DNA from: Desulfitobacterium dehalogenans ATCC 51507
GTDB taxonomy: Bacteria; Bacillota; Desulfitobacteriia; Desulfitobacteriales; Desulfitobacteriaceae
DNA length: 64,000 bases
Assembly: GCF_000243155.2 (NCBI RefSeq)
Contig: NC_018017.1
Location: 3,968,001 to 4,032,000 of the forward strand
Direction of reading: 5' to 3'
A program made the position numbers and the translations under genes. The first letter of the stretch is position 1. Every line of letters begins with the position of its first letter. This document shows, piece by piece, positions 41,036 through 46,458 of the stretch. Below the pieces are notes generated by a model, which did not search any database, was not told where the DNA came from, and saw only the letters and a program-made list of their open reading frames with translations.

Positions 41036-41377
41036 CTATGCCTTCTTAACAAATTCAGATTTTAATTGCATTCCTCCAAAACCATCGATTTTGCAATCAA
41101 TGTCATGGTCCCCTTCAATCAAGCGTATGTTTCTTACTTTTGTACCAATCTTAATTGATGATGAACTTCCTTTTACCTTAAGATCCTTAATTATTGTAAC
41201 CGTATCCCCATCGTTTAAGACATTGCCATAGGCATCTTTAACTACCTTAGTATCTTCATTATTCTCGATGCTTGATTCCAAGGTCCACTCATAGCCGCAT
41301 TCCGGGCAAACAAAACCACTTCCATCGGCGTATGTATAAGCCGAGTTACATTTTGGGCAATTTGGAAAATTAGTCAT
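41036..41377 (-). CDS. yjdM: YjdM/PhnA-type zinc ribbon protein
   Basis: 113 residues. An N-terminal zinc ribbon ([21 protein letters not shown]) is joined to a small SH3-like PhnA domain with [20 protein letters not shown] and [19 protein letters not shown]. The family was once tied to phosphonate use but its role is undefined. GGAGG precedes the ATG. It is a single gene. Confidence 0.92.
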
Positions 41378-41446: not shown

Positions 41447-42364
41447 TTAAAACGGCCCTTTCCCTTGGTGCAAAAGAATTTTGCCTGTAAACAAACGATA
41501 AGACAGGGACTTCCATTCCATACTTAAAGCTTTAGAACGGCAGATAGTAACGCATCTTTGGCAGCGAACACATTTTAACGGTTCATATATCAAGGTCAAC
41601 GGTTCTCCATTTTCTTTTTGTGTTAAAGCTCCTTGGGGGCAAACCTCTGAACACTCACCACAGTCTACACACCGCTCATTTATCTTTAAGGCCGGTATAG
41701 GGAGTGCTTCAATCTCAGATTTTCTCGATTGCCAAACTTCCTCTAAGAACTGTCGTGTCTTCGGAATAAGATAGGCTTCGTCGGAAGTGATCCCCGGAAG
41801 CATTGCTTCAAGTTTTTCACGGCCGATGTCCCGCCATCCCTTTTCCTCGCTCCGGGTTTGAGCCGACATTGCTTCCATGACCGGCTCACCGCCCCCATCA
41901 CCCGGTATGACTTTAATCCTGAGGGTTGGGTGATCTTGCCACGAGTTATGGACCTCCTTAAAAATCTGCACACTCATTCCACAAGCTTTTTTATCCGGGC
42001 ACTCTGCACACATTCCGGTGACCATCGTCAACTCCTTTTCCCGGGCAACCATCAAACATGTCATCCACAAATCTCGGTCGAACACCCCCAGACACGGAAT
42101 TTCATAGCCTGTTGGAATGGCTTGAGGACAGTTCAACACGATCTTCTCCGAATTTCGTATAAACTCGTAGAGCTTATCGGTATTATAGTAGACAAATCCA
42201 TCACTGGGACAAACAGCCATACAAATTCCGCATTCTGTGCAATGGTTGGCATTCAGTTCACGATAGACGGAAATCGCTTGATGAGGACAGGAGTCGATAC
42301 ATAACCGGCATAGACTAACATATGGTTTTTTGGTATTGAGGCAATTATGGTGATGATAGACCAT
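41447..42364 (-). CDS. Multi-cluster ferredoxin-type protein of the exported hydrogenase operon
   Basis: About 305 residues with several [4Fe-4S] motifs: CRLCIDSCP, CTECGICMAVCP, CVDCGECSEVCP and CVRCQRCVTIC, plus CAECPDKKACG in the middle. There is no export signal, so it is probably on the cytoplasmic side. Start choice is unusual: the strong AAAAGGAG site is followed at ten bases by ATT, and the next ATG is at 42364. The only other standard start, TTG at 42433, overlaps the membrane-subunit gene and lacks a site. It is fourth in the hydrogenase operon. It could be a maturation or electron-transfer factor. Confidence 0.75.
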   Translation of the reverse strand: MVYHHHNCLNTKKPYVSLCRLCIDSCPHQAISVYRELNANHCTECGICMAVCPSDGFVYYNTDKLYEFIRNSEKIVLNCPQAIPTGYEIPCLGVFDRDLWMTCLMVAREKELTMVTGMCAECPDKKACGMSVQIFKEVHNSWQDHPTLRIKVIPGDGGGEPVMEAMSAQTRSEEKGWRDIGREKLEAMLPGITSDEAYLIPKTRQFLEEVWQSRKSEIEALPIPALKINERCVDCGECSEVCPQGALTQKENGEPLTLIYEPLKCVRCQRCVTICRSKALSMEWKSLSYRLFTGKILLHQGKGPF

Positions 42365-42405
42365 TTGACAAGTATAAATGACGAAGACACTCCTTTTGGG
42401 AATGA

Positions 42406-43659
42406 TTATTTTCCGGCCTGGCTTTCGTGGCAATTTGGCAAGGCCGCTTGTTTTACAGCATCACCGCTCGTCCCTTTTCCTTCCACTGATTCTGACTTAT
42501 GATGCCCAAAAATATTAAAGTTTTCTGCTATGAACAGGTAGGCTAAACAAGCTATTGAAACCAAGCCGAGGCTGACGATAATCTCTGTCCAGGCAGGGAA
42601 ATAATGTCCGCCGTATTGGTTCAGATAGCTTCCCATTCCTGTGAACAATACATCAAACCTATTCATAACCACTCCGGCTACAGTAAGGATTCCAAACCCA
42701 ATCAAGCCTTTGCGGGTACTGGATAAAGAACTAAAGGCAATGATTATGGGGAGGATACAACCTAAAACCAGTTCACTTAAGAACATCATGCTGGGCAGGT
42801 CAAAGGCAAAAGCATGGGCAAAGGTTCCTCTGACCGACATATCCGCGATCTTTAAGATCAAATAGAGAATCATGGCTCCACCGGATATCCTGACTAACCC
42901 TCTTAATACCGAGGTATCCACTTGATGATTAAGCGCCTTCCCGGCCAGACTGCTTTCGATAATAATCATCCCTGCCCCCACAAAAAATGAGGATAACAGG
43001 AAGAACACCGGGAGAAGGGGCGACCACCAAAGCACATTCACTTTGCCCACCATGATATAAAACAGCTGACCTAGTGATGATTGGTGCAGTGTGGGCAGGG
43101 TAATACCGACGATGAGCAGGACAGGCATGGCTTTCTTAAGGTATTTGTGTGCCCCTTTAAACACTTTCTCTGTTGCAACTTCACTGAACTCCAAGATCTG
43201 AATTACGGTATAACAGGAAATACACCAGAAGACTTCAAATAATACACTGGCATGCCCCCATGATACATAAGGCCTCCAGAAAAAGAACCATTGGCCTACT
43301 TCAATCAATAAACCGAGAACGACAACGATATACCCTAATAATGAGGTCACCATGGCACTTCTGGCGATGGGATAAAATTTATCCCGACGCAGCACATATA
43401 CTATGAGGGCGGTTCCATAACCGCCTCCTGCCAAGGCTACTCCTAACAGGACGTCAAAGGAAATCCATAGTCCCCATGGCCACTGGTCATTCAGGTTGGT
43501 CGTAGCTCCCAGACCCAAAATAAACCTCACGATGATGACTGCCAGGGCTGCAGCTGCTATAGCCATAAACACCCATCTCATAGGGGTCATTCTAAATTTC
43601 CATCGGGTACTGTTTAATTTCTCCCCTGCCTTATTTTTGAACGTCGTAATCACTTCCAT
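42406..43659 (-). CDS. NrfD/HybB-type membrane subunit of the hydrogenase complex
   Basis: 417-residue polytopic membrane protein with about nine or ten hydrophobic helices, of the HybB/NrfD/PsrC family. These proteins anchor exported redox enzymes and exchange electrons with quinone without carrying heme. It is encoded directly after the ferredoxin-like HybA-type subunit. GGAGGG is 11 bases before the ATG. Given the neighbours, it probably connects periplasmic-side hydrogen oxidation to menaquinone. Confidence 0.88.
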   Translation of the reverse strand: MEVITTFKNKAGEKLNSTRWKFRMTPMRWVFMAIAAAALAVIIVRFILGLGATTNLNDQWPWGLWISFDVLLGVALAGGGYGTALIVYVLRRDKFYPIARSAMVTSLLGYIVVVLGLLIEVGQWFFFWRPYVSWGHASVLFEVFWCISCYTVIQILEFSEVATEKVFKGAHKYLKKAMPVLLIVGITLPTLHQSSLGQLFYIMVGKVNVLWWSPLLPVFFLLSSFFVGAGMIIIESSLAGKALNHQVDTSVLRGLVRISGGAMILYLILKIADMSVRGTFAHAFAFDLPSMMFLSELVLGCILPIIIAFSSLSSTRKGLIGFGILTVAGVVMNRFDVLFTGMGSYLNQYGGHYFPAWTEIIVSLGLVSIACLAYLFIAENFNIFGHHKSESVEGKGTSGDAVKQAALPNCHESQAGK

Positions 43660-43692
43660 AGCCTGTTCTTCCCTCCACTCTCTTTTCCTGTA

Positions 43693-44469
43693 TCAATCCA
43701 GGGGATCCTTGTTTTTGTTATTAATGACAAATAACCCGGCTAAAATAGCAGCCCAGCTGACCCCAATCATGGGTGTCGCTTTCATATATCCTTCTGTGTA
43801 AGAAGGCAGCGGGTTGGGTGTTACATCCGTTCTGAATCTCATCTCTTCCAGCGGCGTATCGGAAATATAAAGCCAGGAGGTTCCTCCTGCTTCGTTCTCT
43901 CCAAATACTCTGTCTATATAACCCTTTTCTTTAATTCGCTTTTTTGCTTCTGCCAACAATTCGTCCCTATCCCCAAACGTAAGAGCTCCTGTGGGGCACA
44001 CTGAGGAACAGGCCGGTTCCATATTATTGGCAACTCTCGTTGGGCACATCTGGCACTTTCTGATTCCAGGAACAGCCTTCTTCCATTCATATCTCAACAT
44101 GTCAAAAGGGCATGCCATCATACAGTAGCGGCAACCGACACATAGCTTCTGATCATAAATGACCGGTCCCTCGGGAAGCTTCTGTATTGCTTTGGAGAAG
44201 CATGCTGAAACACATGCAGGCTCCTCACAATGAAAACATTGAGTTTTGACATATCTACGAACAGAAGAGCTGTTCTTCTGTAAATCATAACGATTGATGG
44301 ATGTCCATTCTTCAGGCCATAGACCATTGTTAGGTTCCGCTGCCCGGTCCGAAGCCGTCTTGTTTTTTTCCTGTTGATCCCATTCAAGTTCATTCCACAA
44401 TTTACAAGCTACTGAACACCCTTCACAACCGATACACTTCGGTATATCGACAAGGACTCCTTTTGCCAT
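43693..44469 (-). CDS. HybA-like four-cluster ferredoxin subunit with C-terminal membrane tail
   Basis: About 258 residues. Cysteine groups are CIGCEGCSVACK, CFHCEEPACVSACF, CVGCRYCMMACPFDML and CQMCPTRVANNMEPACSSVCP. A C-terminal hydrophobic helix (MIGVSWAAILAGLFVIN) is followed by a short charged tail, as in HybA-type subunits. The ATG at 44469 has AGGAGGTGG upstream. It starts 12 bases after the hydrogenase stop and should carry electrons from the hydrogenase to the membrane subunit. Confidence 0.9.
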   Translation of the reverse strand: MAKGVLVDIPKCIGCEGCSVACKLWNELEWDQQEKNKTASDRAAEPNNGLWPEEWTSINRYDLQKNSSSVRRYVKTQCFHCEEPACVSACFSKAIQKLPEGPVIYDQKLCVGCRYCMMACPFDMLRYEWKKAVPGIRKCQMCPTRVANNMEPACSSVCPTGALTFGDRDELLAEAKKRIKEKGYIDRVFGENEAGGTSWLYISDTPLEEMRFRTDVTPNPLPSYTEGYMKATPMIGVSWAAILAGLFVINNKNKDPLD

Positions 44470-44481
44470 CGTTTCCACCTC

Positions 44482-46065
44482 CTAAACTTCATATAAATGG
44501 CTTGCGGGTTTTTTAGCATCAAACTCTTCAGCCCTGGAAATATAATGGGTATGCAAAAGTTCTTCGGCTTTCTCGCTCAACGGTGAGGTTAAGAAATCTT
44601 CATAAACTTGCTTGATTTGAGGATTATCATGACTGTTGCGCAGTTTTGCATTAGCATCAATCTTATATAAGGATGCGGCACGTGTGTTACGAACGCCATC
44701 TGAGGGGGGAGCCGATGACCGGGGTTGTCCGCCGCCGTATTGGCACCCTCCGGGACAGGCCATGACTTCGATGAAAGCCCAGGGAGAGTTACCTGCTCTC
44801 ACTTGCTCCATAATCTTTCTGGCATTATCCAAACCGGAAATAACTGCAATTTTTACATCACCGGCGCCGGGGATAGGGACAGAAGCTTCTTTAACCCCCT
44901 CCATTCCTCGTACAGGTGCTAACTGCCAAAGTGCGGAAGGTGGCTGTTGTCCTGTAATAAGGTAATAGGCAGAACGAACTGCTGCTTCCATAACACCGCC
45001 GGTGGTGCCAAAAATCGCCCCAGCCCCGGTTCCGATCCCCATCAGTTGATCATACTCTTCATCGGGAAGAGATGGGAAATCGATACCCGCTCTCTTGATC
45101 ATTCTGGCCAGCTCTCTTGTGGTGAGCACCACATCCACATCAGGAGAAACATGTTTATCCTTCAAATAGGTTTGGGCTGAAATCATTTCGGGGCGCTGAC
45201 ATTCAAATTTCTTTGCTGTACAAGGCATGATGGCTACTGAAAAGACGGTTTTAGGGTCTATAGTGTTCTTTTCAGCAAAATAAGTCTTAACTAAAGCTCC
45301 TTCCATCTGTTGGGGAGATTTGGCTGAGGATAAATTGGGAATGAGATCAGGATAAAAATACTCGACAAACTTAACCCAACCTGGGCAACATGATGTGAGC
45401 TGTGGAAGAGGGTGATGCAATTCGCCTGTAATACGCTTAACAAGCTCTGACCCTTCTTCCATAATGGTCAGATCAGCTGTGAAGTTGGTATCAAAAATCA
45501 CGTCGAACCCTAATTCTCTCAAGGCGGCGACTTGTTTACCCTGGACATTTGTCCCTACAGGCATCCCAAATTCTTCCCCCAGACCAATACGCGTTGCCGG
45601 TGCAGTTTGCACTACCACCGTGATATTGGGATCTGAGAGGGCTTTTAGTACTTTATCACTATCCTCCCGTTCCGAGATTGCTCCGGAGGGACACCAATGA
45701 ATGCACTGTCCACAATGTATACAAACAATGTCGTTTTTAATAGGCAGTTCATAATTTCCATATACGGATTGAATCGTTTTACATACTTCAATACATTGAC
45801 CACAAAGAATACACTTCTGGTCGTCTCTAATAATAGAAGGATTTTCCGGATCAATGGGGACGCGACCGCGAACGTTGGTCGGCCAGCCCCCCGGTTCATT
45901 GTATTGTGTTGGCATCCAACCGCCTCCGCCAACCGCACTGGCAGGTGTCAGGGGTTGGCCACAACCCGTTAAGCTTAGGGAGACACCGGCTATACTAGCC
46001 CCTCCGGCAAATTTAAGGAAAGAGCGTCTGGATAAATTCTTTCCTTTTCCAACTTTGCTTGCCAT
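44482..46065 (-). CDS. Tat-exported [FeFe] hydrogenase catalytic subunit
   Basis: About 527 residues. The twin-arginine signal SRRSFLKFAGG and hydrophobic core are followed by a Cys in a lipobox-like LTGC. Next come two [4Fe-4S] sites (CILCGQCIEVC, CIHCGQCIHWCPSGAI) and the H-cluster motifs in order: TSCCPGWVKF, MPCTAKKFEC and the ACPGGCQYGGGQP motif. The C-terminus carries a fused small-subunit domain (about 460-527). All H-cluster cysteines are present. Export plus HybA/HybB-like partners suggests respiratory H2 uptake at the outer membrane face. The ATG at 46065 has AAGGTGG eight bases upstream. Confidence 0.92.
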   Translation of the reverse strand: MASKVGKGKNLSRRSFLKFAGGASIAGVSLSLTGCGQPLTPASAVGGGGWMPTQYNEPGGWPTNVRGRVPIDPENPSIIRDDQKCILCGQCIEVCKTIQSVYGNYELPIKNDIVCIHCGQCIHWCPSGAISEREDSDKVLKALSDPNITVVVQTAPATRIGLGEEFGMPVGTNVQGKQVAALRELGFDVIFDTNFTADLTIMEEGSELVKRITGELHHPLPQLTSCCPGWVKFVEYFYPDLIPNLSSAKSPQQMEGALVKTYFAEKNTIDPKTVFSVAIMPCTAKKFECQRPEMISAQTYLKDKHVSPDVDVVLTTRELARMIKRAGIDFPSLPDEEYDQLMGIGTGAGAIFGTTGGVMEAAVRSAYYLITGQQPPSALWQLAPVRGMEGVKEASVPIPGAGDVKIAVISGLDNARKIMEQVRAGNSPWAFIEVMACPGGCQYGGGQPRSSAPPSDGVRNTRAASLYKIDANAKLRNSHDNPQIKQVYEDFLTSPLSEKAEELLHTHYISRAEEFDAKKPASHLYEV

Positions 46066-46458
46066 GTCTATTACCACCTTTTTAGTATGTCTGCATATGA
46101 CTGCTAAAATCTTGACTGAAACTATGATTTAATTGCATCTTCAATAATTGTAGTCCATCATTATTAAATAAAATTAAGAACTTTCTTTTAATAGTGTAAA
46201 GTTTCACTTATATTTGCAAGGTTTTGCCTTCTATTTTTAACAAGTAGCCTTAAGTTATTCTTGATGCTCCTTTCAAATTAGGGTGTTAGAACTAGCAACT
46301 AATGAGGTTTCAGTGATTTATCTATACAAAATTCAACATTTTTCTTTTATTTCCTTCTTAAACTTCTAAAATAGTCTAATATTTTGAAAACACTTTGCAA
46401 CTTAATCCACAATCTAAGAAATACTGTAATCCGATTCAGAATAGCCTTTTTGCCATAT
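46066..46458 (-). other. AT-rich non-coding gap upstream of the hydrogenase operon
   Basis: About 390 bases without a supportable gene. On the minus strand a weak TTGCAA / TACACT pair (about 16 bases apart, near 46190-46220) could be a promoter. I see no clear FNR, Rex or Fur palindrome. Confidence 0.4.

Follow-up and report, generated by a model that had tools for sequence, protein, structure and literature searches.

The locus described here raises two linked questions: whether Desulfitobacterium dehalogenans carries an [FeFe] hydrogenase on the outer face of its membrane and, if so, how the H-cluster of such an enzyme would be made. To our knowledge, H-cluster synthesis by HydE, HydF and HydG (HydEFG) is treated as universal, and we know of no other route to the [2Fe] subsite. 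A first-pass annotation of the window (the whole 64,000-nucleotide stretch of DNA analyzed here; G000:C1:3968001-4032000) described an [FeFe] hydrogenase with a twin-arginine (Tat) signal and a fused small-subunit domain, followed by HybA-like and NrfD/HybB-like genes, and with no hydEFG gene adjacent. Four reading frames are borne out in the order hydA, Fe-S subunit, membrane subunit and polyferredoxin (Table 1), such that a single operon holds catalytic, Fe-S and integral membrane subunits—the defining trait of complexes of the Hyd2ABC kind. The lipobox, the fourth (polyferredoxin) gene within the same segment and the genome-wide absence of HydEFG are features beyond that first description.

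Table 1. Features of the exported [FeFe] hydrogenase operon (window positions).
Feature	Position	Strand	Basis or remark
Whole operon, in the order hydA, Fe-S subunit, membrane subunit, polyferredoxin	46065-41447	minus	
hydA, group A [FeFe] hydrogenase, 527 aa, with Tat signal and lipobox	44482..46065	minus	domain and family matches, AF2 model
Tat signal, SRRSFLKFAGGASIAG...LTGC, with the lipobox cysteine as its last residue; HydA a predicted lipoprotein exported by Tat	45961..46065	minus	orthologue comparison, TatC in genome
Fe-S subunit like HmcB, HybA and FdnH; lacks a signal peptide, has a single TM-like helix at the C-terminus	43693..44478	minus	
Integral membrane subunit like NrfD, HybB and HmcC; putative site for menaquinone	42406..43659	minus	
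Polyferredoxin (pfd), four [4Fe-4S] motifs, Cys-rich middle domain	41447..42379	minus	exact start uncertain

Family score and motifs confirm HydA as a group A [FeFe] hydrogenase. The protein scores 493 bits against TIGR02512 (group A; cut-off 406), and Fe_hyd_lg_C (1.2e-94) and Fe_hyd_SSU (1.5e-23) both match within a single chain, the small-subunit domain (PF02256) being fused at the C-terminus (residues 462-515 of the 531-aa ORF). Its domain content comprises two F-domain [4Fe-4S] motifs, the H-cluster domain and the small-subunit domain, and the H-cluster motifs are present (L1 TSCCPGW, L2 MPCxxKK, L3 ExMxCPxGCxxGGG). Thermoanaerobacter kivui HydA1 and the fused DdHydAB are its closest solved relatives, and the AlphaFold (AF2) model (mean pLDDT 81) aligns with Clostridium pasteurianum CpI (Z 52.1, rmsd 2.5 over 433 residues) and with linked D. 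desulfuricans HydAB (Z 49.6, rmsd 2.2 over 422 residues). A GTG at 46077 was set aside as the hydA start in favor of the ATG at 46065 because the upstream “KKVV” codons, which are conserved, form a ribosome-binding site (AAAAAGGTGGT).

The HydA N-terminus (SRRSFLKFAGG...LSLTGC) combines the sequence features of a Tat lipoprotein, i.e., an S-R-R-x-F-L-K motif, a hydrophobic stretch and a lipobox Cys. A twin-arginine motif, (S/T/N)RR(S/G)FLK, occurs in all orthologues inspected, and all but two of these keep the L-x-G-C lipobox behind it; TatC was found in the source genome. This arrangement, which agrees with the Tat assignment of the first-pass annotation, predicts that HydA is a Tat lipoprotein anchored to the outer face of the membrane. 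Export of the Fe-S subunit by hitchhiking, as in formate dehydrogenase N (FDH-N), is likely, since the subunit has no signal peptide, ends in a C-terminal hydrophobic helix and resembles HmcB, HybA and FdnH.

The partner genes lie 3′ of the hydrogenase, as first described. For the Fe-S subunit, the top NCBIfam match is HmcB (266 bits), followed by HybA (190 bits), with FdnH recovered by PDB search; for the membrane subunit, the matches are NrfD (Pfam, 1.6e-13), HybB (270 bits) and HmcC (240 bits), and no sequence match was found in the PDB. All four bit scores lie below the equivalog cut-offs (263 bits for HybA, 420 for HmcB, 450 for HybB and 550 for HmcC), so that by sequence the partner genes are homologues of HybA and HybB, not equivalogs. 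The polyferredoxin has neither a signal nor a TM helix and probably stays in the cytoplasm; its fold model (pLDDT 36.8) was discarded. As to its start, the start-aligned ATG of a second genome of the genus (G003) reads ATT in the source genome (G000). We also considered yjdM (41036-41377) as an operon member and rejected it: it lies 3′ of pfd in G003 as well, but has no match in the Desulfosporosinus loci fetched.

Complexes of this kind are already known from related bacteria, and the architecture is here confirmed for the present operon. Syntrophomonas wolfei Hyd2ABC is a three-subunit, membrane-bound [FeFe] hydrogenase with in-gel H2 activity (PMC5101538) that is predicted to be external and quinone-linked (PMC3582634). 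By description it is alike, although its menaquinone link is described as running through a b-type cytochrome and not NrfD, a fourth ferredoxin gene goes unmentioned, and S. wolfei has HydEFG, which has been employed as an expression tool (PMC7311640). A second counterpart is Desgi_0926-0928 of Desulfotomaculum gibsoniae, a three-gene [FeFe] hydrogenase associated with the membrane, whose alpha subunit bears a Tat motif; the type of its membrane subunit goes unstated (PMC4148979). The first-pass reading of an [FeFe] core in place of a [NiFe] one is, with these two precedents, a fair description but not a new arrangement.

Likenesses to better-known enzymes are partial. In Desulfovibrio periplasmic HydAB, the Tat signal is on the small subunit. 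That enzyme (PDB 1hfe) shares with HydA its group A membership, two F-clusters and a small-subunit domain (~50% identity over the aligned part), but there the small subunit forms a chain of its own, and the complex has no dedicated membrane partner. E. coli hydrogenase 2 (HybOABC) and FDH-N likewise pair a HybA/FdnH-like Fe-S subunit with a HybB-like membrane subunit, and these subunit matches support, by analogy, the proposed likeness to Hyd-2/FDH-N-type quinone-linked complexes; their catalytic subunits, however, are [NiFe] or molybdenum enzymes. E. coli HybA bears its own Tat signal, unlike the Fe-S subunit of the present operon. The Desulfovibrio Hmc complex supplies the top match of the Fe-S subunit (HmcB) and, for the membrane subunit, the runner-up by a small margin (HmcC), but the operon has no multihaem cytochrome and scores below the Hmc equivalog cut-offs.

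We favor, with moderate confidence, the reading that the product of the operon is a group A [FeFe] hydrogenase complex that is anchored in the membrane, faces outward and works as follows. HydA would acquire its Fe-S clusters and fold in the cytoplasm before Tat export, a step for which the sequence signature is strong, and would then be anchored through the lipobox cysteine. The HybA/FdnH-like subunit, lacking a signal, would probably be carried across along with HydA as a hitchhiker and stay attached through its C-terminal helix. Electrons may pass, in either direction, between the H-cluster, the two F-clusters, the clusters of the second subunit and menaquinone at the NrfD/HybB subunit, as precedents in Hyd2, FDH-N and Hyd-2 suggest. 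The polyferredoxin may be a cytoplasmic assembly or redox helper.

The three-gene core is kept throughout its family. The nearest named HydA relatives are from Desulfosporosinus species (79–84%) and a Desulfitobacterium MAG (81%), and the hydA-hybA-hybB block recurs in Desulfosporosinus, in Peptococcaceae MAGs, in genome G050 and in one MAG labelled Proteobacteria; pfd joins it, downstream of the trio, in Desulfitobacterium and Desulfosporosinus. Tat-type HydA forms a single, fully supported clade separate from the sampled cytosolic group A enzymes, in which G000 and G003, whose operon is 89% identical, are sisters. In G050 (L061:2882-10392), the trio occurs twice in tandem, with HydA copies at 73 and 58% identity to the query and HybA-like and HybB-like genes that score identically against it, which suggests that the partner genes alone were recently duplicated or gene-converted. 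The Proteobacteria-labelled MAG (L019:7001-10558) carries Tat-HydA, HybA-like and HybB-like genes at 62, 43 and 37% identity—possibly a horizontal transfer or a mislabelled bin.

In most relatives the H-cluster would be made by HydEFG. The source genome is one contig of 4,321,753 bases, and HydG, HydF and HydE are absent from the whole of it at profile cut-offs, with best scores of 81, 96 and 149 bits (cut-offs: TIGR03955, 312; TIGR03918, 326; TIGR03956, 255). The HydF-profile matches resemble other TrmE/Era/Der-superfamily GTPases, since coverage is partial and limited to the N-terminal GTPase domain. A HydE/HydG-like match at G000:596297 was rejected as a divergent maturase, being PylB (539 bits against a cut-off of 348), encoded ahead of PylC and PylD; this pyrrolysine operon, pylBCD, adjoins a corrinoid-type methyltransferase gene (L065:1384-5489; G000:C1:595.4-599.5 kb). 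The lack of an adjacent hydEFG, as first noted, thus extends over the entire genome.

An ordinary HydEFG set might have been missed, either as divergent genes or on a plasmid outside the contig, and the one-contig assembly leaves room for a plasmid. We judge this very improbable, however: identical searches detect HydG in 46, HydF in 47 and HydE in 44 of the 62 genomes of the class sample (each ≥90% complete), and all three in Thermotoga maritima, the positive control, yet none of the three passes its cut-off in G003 (30 contigs, 100% complete). D. hafniense DCB-2 is likewise without [FeFe] maturases according to the passage of PMC9888536 that cites Kruse 2017. Function of [FeFe] enzymes in D. 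hafniense is left undecided in PMC9888536, and both a composite (PMC9888536) and a monomeric (PMC11238625) [FeFe]-type protein have been detected in the proteome. In the open-access literature, we found no paper that joins an exported complex with missing maturases.

HydF alongside Tat-type HydA is the rule, to which the G000/G003 lineage is the exception. By hand count in a 398-genome phylum sample, HydF accompanies Tat-type HydA in 27 of 30 genomes (exceptions G000, G003 and G096). HydEFG are absent also from G024 (91% complete) and G049 (95%), incomplete assemblies that we left out as proof. A third species of the genus (G004) has no Tat operon, yet retains intact hydE-hydG-hydF. This distribution would suit a recent loss of HydEFG that left the operon a decaying relic, and no hydEFG remnant was found beside cwlD, where upstream synteny is broken.

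Against decay stands the signature of selection. Between G000 and G003, hydA dN/dS (ω; Nei–Gojobori) is 0.074 at a dS of 0.84, rank 4 of 67 pairs (median 0.112), and the partner genes give 0.061 and 0.059 with frames open throughout; hydA of this maturase-less pair is as constrained as in HydEFG-bearing relatives. If HydEFG were lost before the two genomes split, the protein has been under strong selection without them. A loss older than the split is the simpler, though unproven, reading; separate later losses in G000 and G003 would weaken the ω argument. We therefore regard a relic as improbable, and note that these data exclude free decay more firmly than they indicate H2 activity. The first-pass annotation proposed a search for hydEFG elsewhere in the genome, and named a lack of maturation genes as grounds for rejecting the complex. 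Taken to the letter, the profile search supplies those grounds, but the evidence of selection is a reason not to discard the complex outright.

With HydEFG absent from G000, H2 chemistry needs another route, or the complex operates without the [2Fe] subsite. The latter reading, in which the complex is made and exported, a [4Fe-4S] cluster stays at the H-site and the enzyme does another redox job, we hold to be a real, if minority, possibility. In the phylum sample of 398 genomes, a hydrogenase match occurs in 297 and HydF in 247; at least 50 therefore carry a group A-like match without HydF, and such genes are not rare. One-contig examples with no HydF over cut-off are G042 (4,497,720 bp), G057 (3,075,407 bp), G136, G250, G306, G351 and G354. 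Where H-cluster motifs were inspected, namely in G057 and, for L1 and L2, in every G042 copy, they appear intact. These numbers and intact motifs, together with the absence of HydE, HydF and HydG from G000 itself, favor a complex that never receives [2Fe], as does the annotation of such heliobacterial genes as nuoEFG in the absence of hydEFG (PMC7143216).

What speaks against a complex that lacks [2Fe] is the integrity of its site. G000 and G003 share the ligand cysteines, the cysteine and glutamates of the proton path, the lysine of L2 and the methionine of L3; of the 91 residues in the motif regions just three differ between the two genomes, none of them a ligand. The residues that contact [2Fe], which we take from CpI and DdHydAB to be the leading Cys of the CC pair in L1, APA, SPQQ, the Lys of L2 and the Met of L3, are likewise unchanged between the two.

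That G000 and its HydEFG-less relatives equip an exported [FeFe] hydrogenase with a functional H-cluster without HydE, HydF or HydG seems to us unlikely, but a HydEFG-independent route would, if true, be a major finding. Exported group A genes under strong purifying selection in a complete genome without HydEFG make a direct test possible, the alternatives being a second maturation route or the selected use of an intact [FeFe] scaffold without its [2Fe] center. They also caution against taking HydA genes by themselves as a sign of H2 metabolism.

Three more [FeFe]-hydrogenase-family genes lie in G000:C1, at 633306-634640 (L001), 708361-709071 (L003) and 928682-929362 (L004); one is of group A, adjoins a HydB/NuoF-like gene and has TSCSPGW in L1, and two belong to other groups. 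Within the window, the sole yield of a promoter and terminator scan was a terminator-like hairpin at 46488-46464, downstream of gatB. Translations of a minus-strand trio (window:35165-37770) resemble a methyltransferase system, i.e., a UroD/MtaA-like protein, a corrinoid protein and a pterin-binding methyltransferase.
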